A stretch of 33,816 nt of DNA. It comes from a virus. The DNA lies in IMG/VR virus record IMGVR_UViG_3300027365_000040, positions 1-33,816 of that record; one strand, given 5' to 3'. Of this stretch, positions 1-28,994 are shown piece after piece (within the stretch, counting starts at the first letter, position 1; every line of letters starts with the position of its first letter). Under the pieces are notes generated by a model. That model did no database searches. It was not told the origin of the DNA and saw only the letters and a list, made by a program, of their open reading frames with translations. The translations under genes were made by a program, and so were the position numbers.

Positions 1-38
1 ATTATTTATTTAGTAAGTTCTAAGTTCCATTAGTTCTT

Positions 39-90
39 TTATTTATGAGTAGTTATTAACTTCTCTTTTATTAATTATTATTTATGAGTA
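39..90. repeat. Pair of 13-bp direct repeats
   Basis: TTATTTATGAGTA occurs at 39-51 and again at 78-90, a 39-bp period, and in both copies is followed by (A/G)TTA. The flanking DNA is very AT-rich. It lies beyond the 3' side of the putative leftward RNA. It could be a binding-site pair or an AT-rich replication element, but nothing else visible supports either role. Confidence 0.4.
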
Positions 91-130
91 ATTAAGTAGT
101 TGTTAAATAAATAGTGTGCTTAATTTGAGT

Positions 131-523
131 TATTTTTGCTGGCAGGGTTCCGTTACTTCTTATTGCATACCGTCCGCGATTCTCACTTTTAACAGTGACC
201 CTGCATCTTTAATACGGTACTTTTCAAGCGTTAACATCGGCCCGTGCTAACAATTAGAATCCACCGCTTTTCAGTAACTTATTATTATACGGTTTTTAAC
301 TAACCTGCTATCGAACGATGCAATACTGCAACGCGCCCACTTTTGGCTCCACGGTCTACAAAGCGACCAACCAACCGCCGTGTTATAAGCGGTATAATAT
401 AAAGTTATCAAAGTACGGCCGCGTTTTGTTTAGTTACCCTTTTTGTCGCGGGGTTCTACCTTCGCTAAACGGCTTGCATCTATAATAAATCTTTGATGGT
501 TCGCCGTGTCCTTTTTTGACTGT
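131..523 (-). ncRNA. Candidate structured non-coding RNA, leftward, unassigned family
   Basis: This stretch is clearly richer in G+C than its AT-rich surroundings, has no convincing reading frame, and starts just downstream of a perfect leftward sigma70 promoter. Complementary segments (plus-strand positions) include 491-497/407-413, 465-470/428-433, 436-439/451-454, 374-378/389-393, 353-356/365-368, 319-322/327-330, 230-236/245-251, 226-230/265-269, 273-278/152-157, 184-187/194-197 and 214-219/168-173. The 7-bp pairing 198-204/142-148 crosses 214-219/168-173, which makes a pseudoknot. Pairings 447-451/419-423 and 350-354/378-382 could be further tertiary or pseudoknot contacts. The 5' end is inferred from the promoter. 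The 3' end is uncertain: no intrinsic terminator is visible and the RNA may run into the AT-rich 1-130 region. I see no tmRNA, RNase P or group I intron signatures. A large phage ornate RNA (GOLLD or ROOL type) is a possibility I cannot test. Pairings were found by eye. Confidence 0.5.
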
Positions 524-529
524 ACCTAA

Positions 530-558
530 ATTATATAACATTTCTACCTGTTTGTCAA
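530..558 (-). promoter_or_regulatory. Perfect-consensus sigma70 promoter, leftward
   Basis: On the minus strand TTGACA (558-553) is followed by exactly 17 bp and TATAAT (535-530). The predicted start is near 523. It fires into the GC-richer structured segment at 131-523. An ATG at 541-539 opens a 36-codon frame, but it lies upstream of the transcript start and is not expected to be translated. A perfect consensus suggests strong transcription by the host RNA polymerase. Confidence 0.78.
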
Positions 559-581: not shown

Positions 582-600
582 TGATATCCCTGTTATATCA
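582..600. repeat. Inverted repeat upstream of the leftward promoter
   Basis: TGATAT (582-587) and ATATCA (595-600) form a 6-bp inverted repeat around a 7-nt centre, 24 bp upstream of the leftward -35 box. It overlaps the stop codon of the possible 49-residue ORF. It may be an operator or a weak hairpin. The support is only its symmetry and position. Confidence 0.3.
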
Positions 601-747
601 ATGGTTAGTGGCTTTTAACTTTACTTTTAGCTGTGGTATCTCCTCAGGTCGCTTTTTATATATTAAGGTTTCTTTTTCTGGAGCCTTTCTTCTACCACCC
701 CCACCCCCCCCAGGTTGCGGTTTCGCCGTTCTTTTATATACAAACAC
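598..747 (-). CDS. Possible small basic protein with poly-glycine stretch
   Basis: This minus-strand frame encodes 49 residues from a GTG at 747. A short N-terminus (FVYKRTAKPQP) is followed by six glycines, then a Lys/Glu/Pro-rich tail (RRKAPEKETLIYKKRPEEI) ending in KATNH. The composition is protein-like, in contrast to the hydrophobic opposite frame. There is no Shine-Dalgarno site and no ATG, so a different start or an upstream frameshift is possible. The frame is closed by a stop codon nine codons before the GTG. The glycines come from a G-rich tract on this strand (plus-strand C run 697-711). If real, it would be read leftward just ahead of the promoter of the structured RNA. I cannot name a function. 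Confidence 0.3.
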   Translation of the reverse strand: MFVYKRTAKPQPGGGGGGRRKAPEKETLIYKKRPEEIPQLKVKLKATNH

Positions 748-9585: not shown

Positions 9586-10029
9586 ATGCCTTATTTATCG
9601 ACAACAGATTTATTTAATAAAATTTTTAACAGTGATAATAATTCAGTCAATGTGTCGCAAAATGGAAGTAATGAGCTAATAGAAAATACTTCCGTAACTT
9701 TTGCAGATGGAGCAACAGTTGACACAGAAAAAGATGTAGATATAGCATTACCTGCTGATTTAGATAGCGATAACTTATATCAATTATTAATACACAATCC
9801 ATCTATTATAACTAATCTTGAAAATCGTGTCAAAATAAAATGGACTGACGCTGATAGTAATATTAGATATTCACAATTGACTTATATCAAAGTTGGCACA
9901 GGAGAAGGAAAAGCGGCATTAGTGCAGGGGAGTATGCTTGGTGAAGGTTTTAGAGTAACCATTTCAAATGATACAGCATTAGGAACAGGCGAAGGTTTTA
10001 CAGCATATCTACAGGTGAGAGAGGTGTAG
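9586..10029 (+). CDS. Putative head-associated structural protein
   Basis: This is a 147-residue protein, beta-rich and low in Cys and Trp, starting after AAGGAGAGGG. Examples of likely strands are NTSVTFADGATVDTEKDVDI, NRVKIKWTDADS and FRVTISNDTALGTGEGFTAYLQV. Its position directly after the major capsid gene and its size suit a capsid decoration or head fibre base protein. I do not recognise a family. Confidence 0.5.
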   Translation: MPYLSTTDLFNKIFNSDNNSVNVSQNGSNELIENTSVTFADGATVDTEKDVDIALPADLDSDNLYQLLIHNPSIITNLENRVKIKWTDADSNIRYSQLTYIKVGTGEGKAALVQGSMLGEGFRVTISNDTALGTGEGFTAYLQVREV

Positions 10030-19881: not shown

Positions 19882-22800
19882 ATGAATAACATCTATAATT
19901 TAAACGAACTTACAGAAGAAGAAAAAAATAAATATAATCTTGATGAAATAACAAACACCACTGAAGATAAAAAAGAAGCACCTAACTATAGCAGTCTTAT
20001 GCCTGGAAATACCGATTATGTAAATGATGATAAAAACAATTTCAACCCTGGAGAAGCCTTAAATAAAGTCGGTAGCTTTTTTACTGGCTTATTTTCTCCA
20101 GATGAAAACAAATCATCTATTAAAAGCCAATATGACAGTTATCAAGAAACTAAAGATATAGATACTATTTCTGGAGCAGCACCAGATTATGTTCCAGTTA
20201 GTAATGAGCCAGCATTAAAAGCAGAAGATATACAGAACGTTAATCAAAAAGTAGGTAAAGTAGCAGGTAATGTCTTAAAAACTGTGGCTGGTTCTGGTGC
20301 TTCTTTAGGGTCTGGTGTGGCAAACTCTTTAGATATGCTTGTAGATTTATCTTTTCAAGAAGATAAACAAACTGTTTTTGAAGACTACGGAGAAAGTAGT
20401 CAACAATTTGCAAAGGAACAATTTGAAGCAGGAGCCTGGGAAGATAATCTTAATGTAATGGAGAGTGTAAAACAAGGTAACATAGGTGAAGCAATATCTA
20501 AGTCAGTCCAAGGAGCATTGCAGAACTCTGCTCAACTATTAACCATCACTGGTATGGGTATTTTAGGTGGTGGAGCGGCAGCTGGAGCAGGTGCAGGACA
20601 GGCTTTATCTGCAACAAGTGGTTATTTATCTGGTTTAGGTGCAGCAGCCACTTCGCAGGCACCACTTGCTTTAATAACAGCTTCAGCAGCAGGTAGTAAA
20701 TACGCAGGGCTTGAAGATAGAGAAGATTTATCTATTAATCAGAAAGTGAGTTCTGGGCTTTTATCTGGTGGTTTAGAAGCAGCAACAGAAACGTGGGGTT
20801 CTTTAAGATACTTAAATGAAATTTCTAACAGTGTGCCAGGTGTAGATAAAACTATCAGAAGTGAAGTTATGAGATATGCCAGAGCATTAATTGACCCTAA
20901 AAAATTAGCTGCTAATGGTATTACTGAAGCTAAAGAGGAATATATAACAGAATTTGGTGACGCTTTATTTGACAGTATGTTAGGTATCAGTGATAAAACA
21001 CTGCCAGAAGTATTAGCAGACCAAGAGCCTTACTTAAACAGTGCTGCTATTGGATTCACCAGTGGTTTAGGTATGTCTGGTGCTGCTCAATTATCTAATA
21101 TTAATCAAGTGTCACAAATGAATGAAGATATAAATAACAGGCAACAAAAAGCAGACCAGTTTATGAATTATGTTGAACAATCAAATTTCAATTTACAAGA
21201 AGATACCAAGCAGGCTTTATGGGAAGAAGCAGTAAATATAAATAGACCAAGCGATATGTATAGAATGTTCCAAAACGCTGAAGAATCTATAAAAAATAAC
21301 GATACCATCACTTTTGAAGAAGGCTCTAAAATATTAGATGAAATGATGGTAGATAGAGGAGATTTAAGCACACTCGAAACAACTTTAAATGAGGAAGAAA
21401 CTACAGAACAACCAACTGAAGAAGTAGAAGAACAAACAGAAGAAACAACTAATGTATCAAACCCTCTTGAAGTGTCAGATGAAGATGTAAGTTTAGAAGA
21501 ACCTGCTGAAAGTAATCAGTATTCAGATTTAAACACTGAAGAATTGTTAAGAGTTAGAGAAGGTTTGTTAAGAGAGTTTGAGGTCACACAAAACCCAGAC
21601 GCTTATCAAGAAGCAAGAACTATTGAAAGAATTTTAGATGAACAAGGTGTAGAATATGGAGAGCAAGAAACTACAGTTGAAGAACCAACTACCGAAGAAA
21701 ATGCCGCAGAGCAAACAGAACCACAGCAAATAGAACAGGAAGACACTCAAGAGGTAGAAGAACCTACCGAAGTTGAAGAGGTTATAGAAACTCAACCTCA
21801 GCAGTCTGATGTGGAATTAACTGAAGAAGAATTAATGGAGCCACAAGGACAGAACGCAGTCCAGGATAACGTGCAAGAATTATCAGTTGAAGAAATAGAA
21901 GACAAAATAGATGATTTGTTCTTTGAGTTGGAAGAAGCTGATACTGAAACTGAACAGATTGAAATTAGAGAACAGATTGATAATTTGGAGCGTGAATTAA
22001 ACACTAAAGTAGATGAACAACAAACCACTGAAGAACAAAGTGTTGACACAGAACCCAATACTGCTATTCACTATGGAGATTTAGGTAAATCAGAAAGTCT
22101 TTTATCTATGGAATCAAGTAGAGGAACAGGTCATTTTGGTACAGGAACTTACTTTTTAGGCTCCGAAAAATCTGCTGGTGCTGTAGGTTATGCAGAAGAT
22201 AGACCATCTTATAAAGTTGATTTTAATGAATATAATTTGTATGAACCAGAAACAGCACAAGAAGGTATGGAACTTCACGACTTTTTAAGAGATTTAAACA
22301 GATATGCTTTTCAAGGAGAATTTGCGACTGATGAAATGTCTTTATCAGAAAGCAGATACAAACCATATCAAGATGAATTATTTGAAGCGAAAGATAAATT
22401 GTTTCCAGATATGTCAGATGAAGAATTTATGAGAGAGTTAAATGATTTACGAGGTTATGTTCAAGCACACGAAGGTTTATCAACTGACGAACAATCACAG
22501 TTAGATTCTCCTTCTACAAGATTTATGAAGACTTTAGGTTATGAAGGAATAGATGTTAGAAACTTTGATAGATTAGATACCACTGAATTTGGTAGTGTTA
22601 TATATGATTTAAAAGATGAAAGTGTTATTGAATCACCAGAAACTGCAACTGAGCAGGAAACTACCGAGGAAGAATTATCAGAAGAAGAAATGGTTGAAAC
22701 TAAACCATATGAAGATAGAGATATAATAAAAAGTATGGAACAAGCAAAAGAAGAAAATGTATCAGTTATACCAGAGAGAAAACATTTATGCCAACAATGT

Positions 22801-25800
22801 GCTTATGACAATCTTATGCAAAATGATGTAGGAACATTAGCTCTCGGAACTGTTGAAGGTATAGGTTTTGACGGAAACGTAAAAAGGGTTAGACACGCCT
22901 GGGTAGAATATGAAGACAGTATTTATGACCCTCAATTTGATAGGTATTTCAGCAAAGAACTTTATGGAGAGCAATTAAAACCTAGAGGAGAAAGGGCTTT
23001 TTCTAAACAAGAAGCCAAAGACGAAATAACAATAAACAGAATTACGCCAGAAGAAGTTAAAGCTGAAATAGAAAATCAAACATTAGATACCACTGAAACT
23101 GAAACAGCAGATACACTCAATCTTAACTCTGCTACAATAGACGACCTTACTGAGATTAAAGGAATTGGAGCGTCAACAGCACAGAATATAATTAAATATA
23201 GGGATAGCAAAGAAAATGGTATTGAAAGTGTTGACGAATTGAAGGAAGTTAAAGGTATAGGTTCTGCTACATTTGATAAGATAGCGCCTTCATTTACTGC
23301 TGAACAGGTTGACACAACAAACAGCACAGAAACCATTGAAGAACCAACTGATAGTGATATAGAAACAGATGAAGATGTAGAGAAAGAAGCGAAAAACTTA
23401 GATGTAGATGATGTTATCAAAGACGTAGAGAAAGAAGAAGGTACAACCAGACAAACCAACGAACTCTTATCTGAAGAAGCAAGAGATTTAATGGAGTTTG
23501 AAGACACTGATATAAGAGAATATTTAGATGTCGTGCTTAGAACAAGTTTGAACGACCTGCAAAACGTAACACAGGCTGAAAGAGATAATATTATAGATGA
23601 AATAGAAATGGACGACCCTGACATAGCTGAAGCTATACGGTCAGAGTTAGAAGAAAGAGCCTATGAAACTGATGATTATTATTATAAAAAAACAGACAAT
23701 GCTAAAAATAAAGATGATATAAAAAATGAAGCAGACGCAAATGACACTGACGGAAATTTTGAAGGTGTTAACAAAGCAACCAGACGTGATATAGAAAACA
23801 CTATCAGAGTTGATTTAGGTTTGCCTTTAAGATATGGTAAATTGCAATCAAGAGATTCGGAAGCACAATACGATAGAATTTATAAGGTTGTCAGAACTAG
23901 AGATTATTCTAATATGGAAGTAACTGCTCACGAAGTAGGACATCATTTATCTGATATGTTAGATTTAGATGTTGAAGCCTTCCCAGAATTGGTACAGTTA
24001 TTAGAAGATGAAGGTCTTAAAGATGCTTATGATAAAAGTGTGTGGCACGAAGAAGGTAACTCTGAATTTTTCAAGTATTACTTTAATTATCCAGGACAGG
24101 CTAAAATTAAAGTTCCAGCATATTATGATTATGTAGAGAGCGTTTTACAGGGCAGTGACTTGTATGAACCTGTTAAGCAGTTGCAAAACCAAATGAACAC
24201 CTGGAACAAACAATCTTATGCTGATAGAGTATCTGGTGCTATGTCAAGACAGGATTTAGATATTGCACCACTTATGACTATGAAGGATAAGTTAAATGAA
24301 GCCTTAGTAGATGAAGATGTAGTTTTTAAAAGAGCATTAGAACAGGCTGGTTATGATGTTGAAACTCTTGAAACATATAAGAACCCCTGGAAATTAAAAA
24401 GATTATATTCAAGTGTAAATGATATGGTAGATGTATTCCTTTCCAAAAAATCATTAGACCCACAAGGAAGACCAAATGGTAAGTCACTGCTTGAAATATT
24501 ATCACCTGTGCAGGATTATATAGGTGAAACAGAAGGTAGAGAGTTTGGCGACTTTGAAGTTTACTCACTTGCATTACACGCATTAGAAAGAGAAGCTAAG
24601 TTCCTTGCTAGAGATTTAGAAGCAAGAGGTAATGATAAAGGTAAACTAGCAGCTAAAAGATTAAACGCTGTAATAGATAACGCTAATATCGAAGCATTAA
24701 TCCAGTCGCTAAAAATGGCAGACAATAATCCAGATAACTTGCGCTCATTAGGATTGGAACTACCAGAAGGCGAATACCGTTTTAGAGCAACTGGAATAAA
24801 TATAAATGATATAGCAAATACAGTTAACGAATATGACAGCAAATTATTTAGAGATACACTTAAAGATTTACAGGAATATCAGAATAATCTTGTTGATTAT
24901 GCACAGTATTATGATATGTTAAGCGAAGACGCTGCTGAAGATATTAAAACAGCCTATAATTTTCATATGCCGCTTCATAGATACTTTGGGGAAGAACTTA
25001 TAAATGAAGGACAAGACACTTCAAGATACACTGATTTACCAGATGTTGTTAAATCTGCTTATGGTAGCACAAGAATAATCAAAGACCCTATTAGAACACT
25101 GGTAAGAGATACTTCATATGTGGTTAGACAGGCAAATAAAAATAATATAGTTGTTAAGTTTATGGAAGCACTTGACGCTAAAAGAGATAGTGGTATAGGC
25201 AATTTAGTAGGTAGAGAGATAACTACACCAGAACCAATAGATAAAGAAAACGTAGTATCATACAGAGTTGATGGAGAAATTAAAGCAAGAGTTGTCCACC
25301 CAGATATTTATAGAACTTTGCAGGGTTTAAATAAAGAATCAGAACACGTTTTAAGGACAATGTTGAAACCACTTGAATACTCTAACAATTTATTTAAGAA
25401 GTTTGCTGTTATCAACCCTAAGTTCTGGCTAAACAACTTGGGTCGTGATGAAGTTAGACAGATGATTTATGAAGATTCTAATGGTATAGAAAAATTAAAG
25501 TTGTTTTCTACTATGGTTGACGGTATGTCAGAAGCATTTGGTCTTGAAAAAGCAGACACTGAAGCTATATTTAGAGGATTAGGTGGAGCAAGAGGTGGTT
25601 TTGCACAATACCTTAAAGATATGGATAATCCACAGACACTTGAAGAATTATTAAGAGCAGATAAAGCATCTAAAAACCCTTTAGACTGGCTCGGTGATGT
25701 TGCTCAATGGACAGAGGATACAAGACGTAAAGGTTTGTTTATAAATAAAGTAGGTAGAGATACTGATGTAATGTCAATGGAAGCTGAAGAAGCAGAAAGA

Positions 25801-26937
25801 GTTTTAAAAGAAGCTGCTTATTTTGGTAAAGGAGAAGTGTTGGAAGATTACTCTATCAAAGGTAGATACACAAAAGAATTAGATAGATATGCTGCTCCAT
25901 TCTCTGCTGCTGGTATGACAGGTGGAAGGCACTTATATAACAAATTAAAACAACCTTCAACCTGGGTAAACGGTATAATAAATGTAACAATACCTTCATT
26001 AGCATTTTGGGGGATGAACAGAGATAAGCCAGAGTATCAAGAATTACCAGCGTGGAAGAAAATGCTTTACTTTAATTATGTTAAAGATAACGGAGAAATA
26101 ATATCTTTCCCAAAACCATTTATTACAGGTTATTTCTTTGGTGCTATACCAGAAATGTTAGCACAGGTTGCTTATAATAAAAACGGTAATGAATTAACTG
26201 ATAATCTTAAAACTCTTATCCAGGCTGGTGCTCCAAACTATCAAATGGCTGGAGGTATTGCTGCTGGATATGAAGTATTAACCAACAGAGCAGACCCTTT
26301 AGGTGACGATTATCAGATAGTACCAGATTCAGAAAAATACTTAGACAATGAAGACCAGTACGGAGAATACAACTCTGAAATATCTAAGATGTTAGGTTCA
26401 GCAATAAATGTATCACCACGTATAATAGACCACCTTTTAGAAGGTCAATTTACAGGTACCTACTCTATGGCAACTAATATTACTGATTATGTATTAGGTG
26501 CTAAAGACTTCAAAGAAGCAGTTTTAGGAATAGTTGGAGTTTATTCTGACCCTTTTATTACATCAACAACTGTCAATAAACTCTATAAAGATAGAGAGAA
26601 ATACAACAACTTAATGTCAAGGTTAAGAGAAAAAGATATGCTAAAACAAGAAAAAGGTTTAAATATTAATGAAATAAGAGAGGTTGCAACAAAATATTCT
26701 AAGTTAAATAATATAACTGACACAATGTCTAAATACAGAAAAGTATCTGACATTATAGACACTCTTGATATAGACCCAGAGTTAAAAGAAAATGCTAATA
26801 AATATATTGATATTCAAAATATTAACTTTGCCAGAGAATATTATGATAGAACCAAAATATATCTTGATGATTATATGTCACAAGAAGAATACCAAAGAGT
26901 GCAGGAATTAATTGATTGGATTCAAAGAAATTATTAA
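19882..26937 (+). CDS. Giant polyvalent virion protein (ART, papain-like, HhH, zinc peptidase, LPD38-like)
   Basis: This 2351-residue protein has the multidomain layout of phage polyvalent proteins, which are packed in the virion and injected with DNA. Gly/Ala-rich hydrophobic segments lie at about 130-330 (for example 214-275). An acidic Glu/Thr linker covers about 500-728. An ADP-ribosyltransferase-like domain spans about 728-915, with HYG (H730), GTGHFGTGTYFL (Y757) and TTEFGSVIYDL (E902). A papain-like domain spans about 950-1060: LCQQC (970/973), RHAWVEYED (H1005), IYDPQFD (D1016). A ComEA-like helix-hairpin-helix lies at 1079-1138. A zinc peptidase has HEVGHH at 1350-1355 with probable third ligand E1395 (NSEFFKYYF). 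Helical regions lead to an LPD38-like C-terminus starting INPKFWLNNLGRDEV (1844-1858). Substrates are unknown. The N-terminus may help membrane passage. Domain calls were made by motif, without search. Confidence 0.8.
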   Translation: MNNIYNLNELTEEEKNKYNLDEITNTTEDKKEAPNYSSLMPGNTDYVNDDKNNFNPGEALNKVGSFFTGLFSPDENKSSIKSQYDSYQETKDIDTISGAAPDYVPVSNEPALKAEDIQNVNQKVGKVAGNVLKTVAGSGASLGSGVANSLDMLVDLSFQEDKQTVFEDYGESSQQFAKEQFEAGAWEDNLNVMESVKQGNIGEAISKSVQGALQNSAQLLTITGMGILGGGAAAGAGAGQALSATSGYLSGLGAAATSQAPLALITASAAGSKYAGLEDREDLSINQKVSSGLLSGGLEAATETWGSLRYLNEISNSVPGVDKTIRSEVMRYARALIDPKKLAANGITEAKEEYITEFGDALFDSMLGISDKTLPEVLADQEPYLNSAAIGFTSGLGMSGAAQLSNINQVSQMNEDINNRQQKADQFMNYVEQSNFNLQEDTKQALWEEAVNINRPSDMYRMFQNAEESIKNNDTITFEEGSKILDEMMVDRGDLSTLETTLNEEETTEQPTEEVEEQTEETTNVSNPLEVSDEDVSLEEPAESNQYSDLNTEELLRVREGLLREFEVTQNPDAYQEARTIERILDEQGVEYGEQETTVEEPTTEENAAEQTEPQQIEQEDTQEVEEPTEVEEVIETQPQQSDVELTEEELMEPQGQNAVQDNVQELSVEEIEDKIDDLFFELEEADTETEQIEIREQIDNLERELNTKVDEQQTTEEQSVDTEPNTAIHYGDLGKSESLLSMESSRGTGHFGTGTYFLGSEKSAGAVGYAEDRPSYKVDFNEYNLYEPETAQEGMELHDFLRDLNRYAFQGEFATDEMSLSESRYKPYQDELFEAKDKLFPDMSDEEFMRELNDLRGYVQAHEGLSTDEQSQLDSPSTRFMKTLGYEGIDVRNFDRLDTTEFGSVIYDLKDESVIESPETATEQETTEEELSEEEMVETKPYEDRDIIKSMEQAKEENVSVIPERKHLCQQCAYDNLMQNDVGTLALGTVEGIGFDGNVKRVRHAWVEYEDSIYDPQFDRYFSKELYGEQLKPRGERAFSKQEAKDEITINRITPEEVKAEIENQTLDTTETETADTLNLNSATIDDLTEIKGIGASTAQNIIKYRDSKENGIESVDELKEVKGIGSATFDKIAPSFTAEQVDTTNSTETIEEPTDSDIETDEDVEKEAKNLDVDDVIKDVEKEEGTTRQTNELLSEEARDLMEFEDTDIREYLDVVLRTSLNDLQNVTQAERDNIIDEIEMDDPDIAEAIRSELEERAYETDDYYYKKTDNAKNKDDIKNEADANDTDGNFEGVNKATRRDIENTIRVDLGLPLRYGKLQSRDSEAQYDRIYKVVRTRDYSNMEVTAHEVGHHLSDMLDLDVEAFPELVQLLEDEGLKDAYDKSVWHEEGNSEFFKYYFNYPGQAKIKVPAYYDYVESVLQGSDLYEPVKQLQNQMNTWNKQSYADRVSGAMSRQDLDIAPLMTMKDKLNEALVDEDVVFKRALEQAGYDVETLETYKNPWKLKRLYSSVNDMVDVFLSKKSLDPQGRPNGKSLLEILSPVQDYIGETEGREFGDFEVYSLALHALEREAKFLARDLEARGNDKGKLAAKRLNAVIDNANIEALIQSLKMADNNPDNLRSLGLELPEGEYRFRATGININDIANTVNEYDSKLFRDTLKDLQEYQNNLVDYAQYYDMLSEDAAEDIKTAYNFHMPLHRYFGEELINEGQDTSRYTDLPDVVKSAYGSTRIIKDPIRTLVRDTSYVVRQANKNNIVVKFMEALDAKRDSGIGNLVGREITTPEPIDKENVVSYRVDGEIKARVVHPDIYRTLQGLNKESEHVLRTMLKPLEYSNNLFKKFAVINPKFWLNNLGRDEVRQMIYEDSNGIEKLKLFSTMVDGMSEAFGLEKADTEAIFRGLGGARGGFAQYLKDMDNPQTLEELLRADKASKNPLDWLGDVAQWTEDTRRKGLFINKVGRDTDVMSMEAEEAERVLKEAAYFGKGEVLEDYSIKGRYTKELDRYAAPFSAAGMTGGRHLYNKLKQPSTWVNGIINVTIPSLAFWGMNRDKPEYQELPAWKKMLYFNYVKDNGEIISFPKPFITGYFFGAIPEMLAQVAYNKNGNELTDNLKTLIQAGAPNYQMAGGIAAGYEVLTNRADPLGDDYQIVPDSEKYLDNEDQYGEYNSEISKMLGSAINVSPRIIDHLLEGQFTGTYSMATNITDYVLGAKDFKEAVLGIVGVYSDPFITSTTVNKLYKDREKYNNLMSRLREKDMLKQEKGLNINEIREVATKYSKLNNITDTMSKYRKVSDIIDTLDIDPELKENANKYIDIQNINFAREYYDRTKIYLDDYMSQEEYQRVQELIDWIQRNY

Positions 26938-28952: not shown

Positions 28953-28967
28953 TATAGAGAAGAAGAA

Positions 28968-28994
28968 ACCCCACTTTAATCGGTGGGGTCTTTT
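28968..28994. terminator. Bidirectional terminator between convergent operons
   Basis: ACCCCAC (28968-28974) pairs with GTGGGGT (28983-28989) around an 8-nt loop. On the plus strand it is followed by CTTTT. On the minus strand TTTCTTCTTC follows. It lies 16 nt after the last rightward gene and just before the end of the leftward operon, so it can stop both transcripts. Confidence 0.8.

Follow-up and report, generated by a model that had tools for sequence, protein, structure and literature searches.

A conserved structured RNA at the divergence of early and late genes in four related phages: a candidate replication-origin transcript

By comparing four related phages, we identified a segment of about 400 nucleotides that, judged from its pattern of sequence change, encodes a new family of structured phage non-coding RNA. 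The family has no counterpart in Rfam, exhibits compensatory changes across the four phages and occupies a defined genomic place. By analogy with phage c2, we propose that this RNA may be the transcript of the phage replication origin, working like the PE1-T transcript of c2 (probability roughly 0.45). The window, meaning the whole stretch of DNA that was analysed, is a contig of 33,816 nucleotides (IMG/VR virus record IMGVR_UViG_3300027365_000040) and not necessarily a whole genome. The RNA was assigned to positions 524 to 125 of its minus strand on the basis of three homologues, RNAalifold z-scores and pair counts.

A sequence-only reading of this DNA had claimed an exact TTGACA-17-TATAAT promoter and, leftward of it, a GC-richer, non-coding segment, and both claims were upheld. 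The sigma70-type promoter lies on the minus strand at 558..530 (TTGACA at 558..553, a 17-nt spacer, TATAAT at 535..530) and matches at 12 of 12 positions. Under a Markov-1 estimate for 12/12 sites with a spacing of 16-18, the expected number is about 0.06 for the whole window and about 0.0016 for 900 nt, against two observed in the window. The second perfect TTGACA-17-TATAAT is at 9833..9805 on the minus strand, antisense within a late-block ORF (9586-10029), and its conservation could not be checked because similarity between the window and L057, the contig that carries homologue L002, ends near 9673. We placed the RNA start near 523 from the position of the -10 box and the 3' end from the drop in similarity and GC. 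GC content is 0.37-0.49 within the RNA segment versus 0.18-0.24 on its left (100-nt windows). The longest sense ORFs inside the RNA span 46 codons in the window and 24, 19 and 18 codons in homologues L002, L058 and L010, respectively; these frames differ in position and length, and no sense frame is shared across the four.

The homologues were reached through relatives of the large terminase in IMG/VR and lie in the same genomic place (L002:3774-4185, L058:4665-5067 and L010:939-1348). By blastn, L002 is 74% identical to the window over 895 bases and L058 is 64% identical over 779 bases; the L010 RNA is too diverged for blastn, yet recognisable by alignment. A promoter is found directly upstream of the RNA in each (12/12 in L002, 10/12 in L058, 11/12 in L010), and the span between the -10 box and the conserved 3' end is 408 nt in the window, 420 in L002, 411 in L058 and 418 in L010. 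On all four contigs, the RNA sits between leftward genes and a rightward block with the small and large terminase genes.

To define how widely the RNA occurs, we took the relatives whose large terminase is at least 58% identical, which comprise 13 loci plus the window. Read by eye, the whole stretch before the terminase genes is present in only five contigs (those of the window, L002, L058 and L010, and L005/L062), of which four carry the RNA; the remaining relatives end before it. L005/L062 has the same layout, with no recognisable copy of the RNA. At the same genomic place (L005:3960-5150), this contig has about 1.2 kb without convincing genes, consisting in order of an AT-rich part (GC 0.24-0.29), about 500 bases at GC 0.4-0.58 and a C tract; positions 4800-5024 fold strongly on both strands (z down to -7.2). 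Searching 51 sources from among 100 loci and the window with model R1 returned the four training members and two weak matches in L012 (E 0.23 and 3.1), and searching sets of 8 and 10 whole genomes returned nothing at E 0.01, with noise only (best E 0.076). A terminase match at E 1e-60 was found in 10 of 398 genomes, and five of those ten regions, read for open gaps, had a different layout. The pattern TTGAWANCTNNATATTANAN{4,9}ATANCA hit 8 stretches in IMG/VR, two of them known members (L018, the contig of L010, and L020, the contig of L002); the other 6 were rejected as the hairpin was absent, and on the same reading all 31 stretches hit in genome_contigs were judged to be chance. A second form of the pattern hit 9 stretches in IMG/VR, 3 of which are known members, and the remainder (L092, L094, L095, L021, L022 and L023) appear to be chance on reading the sequences. 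The pattern AAAGTGGGCGYGTTNNNTATNGC, with a spacing one base off the element, hit nothing beyond chance, one designed on the upstream element matched no contig except that of L010, and a search with protein A6 yielded no contigs beyond those already known. A literature search, with subscription papers mostly outside its reach, found no paper announcing this RNA by title or abstract.

To assess whether the segment has a conserved fold, we compared RNAalifold energies with those of 100 column shuffles that preserve gap pattern and conservation class. The energy was -17.7 versus -6.2 for all four sequences (z -4.1), -50.9 versus -23.4 for the window, L002 and L058 (z -6.5) and -56.4 versus -28.6 for the window and L058 (z -6.1), with 0 of 100 shuffles as good in each case. 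Second, on plain MAFFT alignments we counted the pairs of one fixed structure, taken from the window. With three sequences, 82.0% of 133 cells were paired and 16 of 45 pairs had changed on both sides, and none of 500 shuffles reached the observed value in any of the five measures; with four sequences, 72.5% of 178 cells were paired and 19 of 45 pairs were double-changed (at most 1 of 500 shuffles). Pairing fell to 32-49% when the partners were shifted by 1-3 columns. When registers were fitted by hand, 154 of 168 cells paired and 28 of 42 pairs were double-changed (0 of 2000 random offsets), a count that flatters the structure because the helices were chosen by us from a scan for conserved stems and the registers were fitted by hand. 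In a fitted-offset control given the same freedom, the helices named P2, P3 and E were significant singly, P4, HA, F and P8 were not, and HG was intermediate. The compensatory changes in related phage contigs thus follow the structure in both RNAalifold and the MAFFT pair counts, and with no conserved protein frame through the region this outcome favours an RNA. The earlier idea of a structured, leftward, non-coding RNA comparable to the large RNAs of phages is supported by this comparison. The evidence for structure comes from the homologues; folded alone, the window sequence is no stabler than shuffled versions, 25 of 100 of which were as good (z -0.63). Among single sequences only L010 is unusual (z -4.1, versus -0.6 for the window, +0.7 for L002 and -1.4 for L058), and folding in sliding 150-nt windows showed nothing distinct over the RNA.

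The predicted fold comprises several hairpins joined by a long-range helix, all on the minus strand. Hairpin P2 (451..419, pairing 451-447 with 423-419) has standard pairs in 18 of 20 cells, and all five pairs are double-changed: the stem reads CCGCG/CGCGG in the window, CACGA/TCGTG in L058 and GTTAG/CTAGC in L010. L002 keeps only 3 of the 5 pairs, with two adjacent A-G mismatches. P2 is misaligned on the plain MAFFT alignments and hence scores poorly there; it passes the fitted-offset control, in which 0.5% of offsets reach both of its counts. Hairpin P3 (393..374, pairing 393-388 with 379-374) pairs in 23 of 24 cells with all six pairs double-changed (0 of 245 fitted offsets reach this), is represented in model R1 and holds a conserved AUARCA in its loop. 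Just before P3 is a block, CUUUGAUAACUNNAUAUUA (413..395), that looks unpaired and is nearly invariant in all four sequences (alignment A8). Hairpin P4 (369..352, pairing 369-365 with 356-352) pairs in 18 of 20 cells with 3 pairs double-changed. The best-scoring conserved stem is the long-range closing helix HA (325..161, pairing 325-319 with 167-161), in which four pairs were scored: all 16 cells are paired, and 3 of the pairs are double-changed. Helix HG (293..263, pairing 293-289 with 267-263) pairs in 19 of 20 cells with 3 pairs double-changed, and a fraction of 0.13 of fitted offsets reach the observed values. No helix could be placed in all four sequences over the 5' part (RNA positions 1-70), and alternative pairings of RNA positions 113-130 with 235-300 were left out as mutually conflicting.

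The 3' part of the RNA probably forms a pseudoknot. The sequence-only reading had described one in which 142-148/198-204 crosses 168-173/214-219, and both helices lie exactly there. Helix E (219..168, pairing 219-214 with 173-168) pairs in 22 of 24 cells with 4 of 6 pairs double-changed (0 of 122 fitted offsets reach this), being TACCGT/ACGGTA in the window, TAACTG/CAGTTA in L002 and CACCG/CGGTG in L058, with 5 of 6 pairs in L010; from these exchanges we regard its covariation as real. Helix F (204..142, pairing 204-198 with 148-142), which crosses E, pairs in 23 of 28 cells with no double changes in this register; GCAGGGT/ACCCTGC forms 7 of 7 pairs in the window, 6 of 7 in L002 and 5 of 7 in both L058 and L010. 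As F is nearly invariant, it is a conserved and possible helix, and the pseudoknot is likely but unproven: the half formed by E is borne out by covariation and the half formed by F is not. Inside the pseudoknot is a small hairpin, P8 (197..184, pairing 197-194 with 187-184), which pairs in 15 of 16 cells with all four pairs double-changed.

We then compared the RNA with known families. Scanning Rfam 15 with all families, including GOLLD, ROOL and pRNA, gave no match over the gathering cut-off in the window, L002, L058 or L010, and no match within the window's RNA at E up to 10, consistent with the earlier remark that no family could be assigned. GOLLD and ROOL are often found near tRNA islands, and ROOL is longer than this RNA. 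Here ARAGORN found no tRNA, and by Rfam GOLLD and ROOL are families distinct from this RNA. The likeness is one of large phage RNAs with elaborate folds, as GOLLD and ROOL are described, with many GOLLD RNAs exceeding 800 nt (PMC12286853). One family, HOLDH (RF02997), produced a match in L010 at 16 bits versus a cut-off of 319.4 (E 0.1 with the library, 2.1e-4 with the single small record). HOLDH is similar in length (391 positions), and part of the L010 P2 region resembles its consensus. At E up to 10 it had no match in the other 4 of the five records scanned, including the window, L002 and L058, and matches below the cut-off also occurred in 4 of 14 control genomes. The range aligned in L010 begins 72 bases ahead of where the RNA is inferred to start and does not keep register with the promoter, and a DNA pattern from the HOLDH core had no match in the IMG/VR collection. 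Membership in HOLDH was therefore rejected, given a score far below the cut-off, the wrong register and absence from the other members.

The place of the RNA in the genome suggested the origin proposal. Late genes in the window point rightward as far as a two-way terminator (28966-28991), beyond which are leftward genes for SSB, a dCTP deaminase, a RusA-like resolvase and a truncated DnaB-like helicase. The sign of the GC skew switches near 28.5 kb, and the skew stays positive along the whole rightward block, a pattern confounded with gene direction. The RNA had been described as lying at the genome end; this is only the end of the contig, because the DnaB-like helicase gene is truncated at the right end, and leftward genes extend past the RNA in L002 and L058. 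The RNA in fact opens the leftward early block. Just downstream of it is an AT-rich stretch (1..124), a candidate strand-opening and iteron region that is cut by the contig end and includes the 120 nt with the lowest GC of the contig (0.192). L057 and L058 likewise have their most AT-rich stretch directly behind the RNA, between it and the first gene, and in L010 the lowest GC (0.13 among windows examined over 650-2090) is also downstream of the RNA. L002, L058 and L010 do not share the same first leftward gene behind the RNA, which ties the RNA to the AT-rich stretch and not to any single gene, and this constant link favours an origin. Repeats in the stretch are uneven. In the window there are two exact copies of TATTTATGAGTA (40-51 and 79-90; 26 of 100 shuffles as good). 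L002 has four similar copies with at most 1 mismatch, 39-48 bases apart (0 of 100 shuffles), L010 has AT-rich repeats of another sequence (2 of 100 shuffles), and those of L058 are not above chance (84 of 100 shuffles).

The record of lactococcal phage c2 (NC_001706) has a 611-bp non-coding region between divergent blocks, annotated with the origin and with leftward promoters EP1 and EP2. PE1-T of c2 (Ceduovirus) is described as a non-coding transcript implicated in the start of replication, and the origin types of the c2 group are described as having no sequence in common among themselves (PMC7150918). As in c2, the divergent early and late blocks of the phages here are separated by a non-coding region in AT-rich surroundings, and their first early promoter is predicted from sequence to drive a leftward untranslated RNA of a few hundred nucleotides. 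It is this agreement in placement, orientation, promoter and non-coding character that leads us to propose an origin transcript. In c2, however, a clear second promoter (PE2) follows the RNA; here, a 10/12 promoter-like site after the RNA is only weakly and unevenly present (106..77 in the window, 3755..3726 in L002, 835..808 in L010, absent in L058), and such sites are about as numerous as in the average shuffle. Model R1 had no match in the c2 origin (record region L100), blastn of the window region against phages gave 9 short, chance-like matches, none in Lactococcus, and the L002 and L058 RNAs gave no match.

The strong host-type promoter is predicted to yield the RNA as the first leftward transcript of the early block, and the comparison supports its folding into hairpins joined by a long-range helix, probably with a pseudoknot. 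If the proposal is right, host RNA polymerase would transcribe through it into the adjacent, very AT-rich and repeat-bearing stretch. The folded RNA might keep the transcript at the origin, or let its 3' part serve as a primer or R-loop. Replication could then be started by the phage DnaB-like helicase together with a host or phage polymerase, with two forks running along with the two divergent gene blocks. In support of this reading, the RNA and its promoter are at the early/late divergence in L002, L058 and L010, the window's late block ends at a two-way terminator facing leftward replication genes, and AT-rich repeats exceed shuffles in L002 and L010. Against it, the repeats do not exceed shuffles in the window or L058 and differ in sequence in L010, L005/L062 has the layout without a recognisable RNA, and no primer or processing site was identified in the RNA. 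More tentatively, a new class of pseudoknotted RNA with an elaborate fold may be an essential part of the origin in an uncultivated phage lineage unrelated in sequence to c2. An origin transcript of this kind would supply a comparative structure for a poorly understood mode of phage replication start. It would also suggest that phages whose early and late blocks diverge have come to structured origin transcripts more than once, with the general prediction that structured RNAs are to be found where such blocks diverge.

Should the RNA prove not to be an origin transcript, it would still count as a new structured phage RNA in an early position, and we see an appreciable minority chance that it stands alone and acts in trans in the style of GOLLD, ROOL or HOLDH, for example early on host polymerase, ribosomes or defences. 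Such an RNA could well have a compact, elaborate fold with a likely pseudoknot and a strongly conserved unpaired core, a strong promoter of its own and no tie to one downstream gene, as is the case here. It would not, however, need to be always beside an AT-rich stretch at the early/late divergence, and our scan for leftward intrinsic terminators after the RNA found none to end the transcript in the window, L002, L058 or L010.

The RNA opens the leftward transcript, with no terminator between it and the early genes, as expected of a long 5' leader controlling transcription or translation of the early operon in cis, for example as a put-like antitermination RNA or as a riboregulator. We give this reading a slightly lower chance than the trans-acting one. 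The put RNAs of phage HK022 lie at such a place, at the start of the early transcript, but the RNA here is far larger, and no early intrinsic terminators were seen for it to override. Scanning the early regions of L058 (1-4660) and L057 (1-5780) revealed no leftward intrinsic terminators, which leaves little to read through and argues against antitermination; in the early part of the window, the sole one is at its far end. In addition, the first gene differs among homologues, and further promoter-like sites are present within the L057 early block.

We consider it very unlikely that the segment works solely as DNA, be it a promoter, an operator, an origin or cos DNA, with the apparent RNA structure as a by-product. 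The surroundings do contain AT-rich repeats, a perfect palindrome and a C-rich tract. The palindrome (TGATAT-7-ATATCA, 582..600), upstream of the -35 box, is a candidate operator that is exact in L002, degenerate in L010 and not recognisable in L058; the tract (695..711), between the RNA promoter and the late genes, is similar in L002, L010, L008 and L005/L006. Against a DNA-only element, the compensatory changes are on the transcribed strand, the opposite strand gives a weaker signal (z -2.3, 50 shuffles), and conserved DNA upstream of the promoter gives no fold signal (z -0.6 and +0.5, 50 shuffles each). Hardly credible is a packaging RNA analogous to phi29 pRNA, a likeness first suggested, loosely, by the location of the RNA. 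In its favour, the RNA is leftward and lies within a few kilobases of terminase genes in all four homologues. Against it, pRNA is smaller and had no Rfam match here, the phage has its own small terminase, as had been pointed out, and a large terminase related to those of HMO-2011-type phages, and the RNA is on the early-gene side, about 1.8 kb from the small terminase gene, rather than at an established genome end.

Finally, we note several features of the surrounding genes and DNA. A helix-turn-helix protein from the L002 early block (L002:88-336) could bind the palindrome. Adjoining the C tract in the window are two near-identical AAATATTTTTTAA repeats (742-802), partly kept in L010. The large terminase of L058 (L058:6666-9317, plus strand; 883 aa) has LAGLIDADG/homing-endonuclease matches inserted before its terminase match, resembling an intein. 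On the plus strand of the window, 19882-26937 encodes a 2351-aa protein with a helix-hairpin-helix motif and the Pfam large polyvalent protein domain LPD38.
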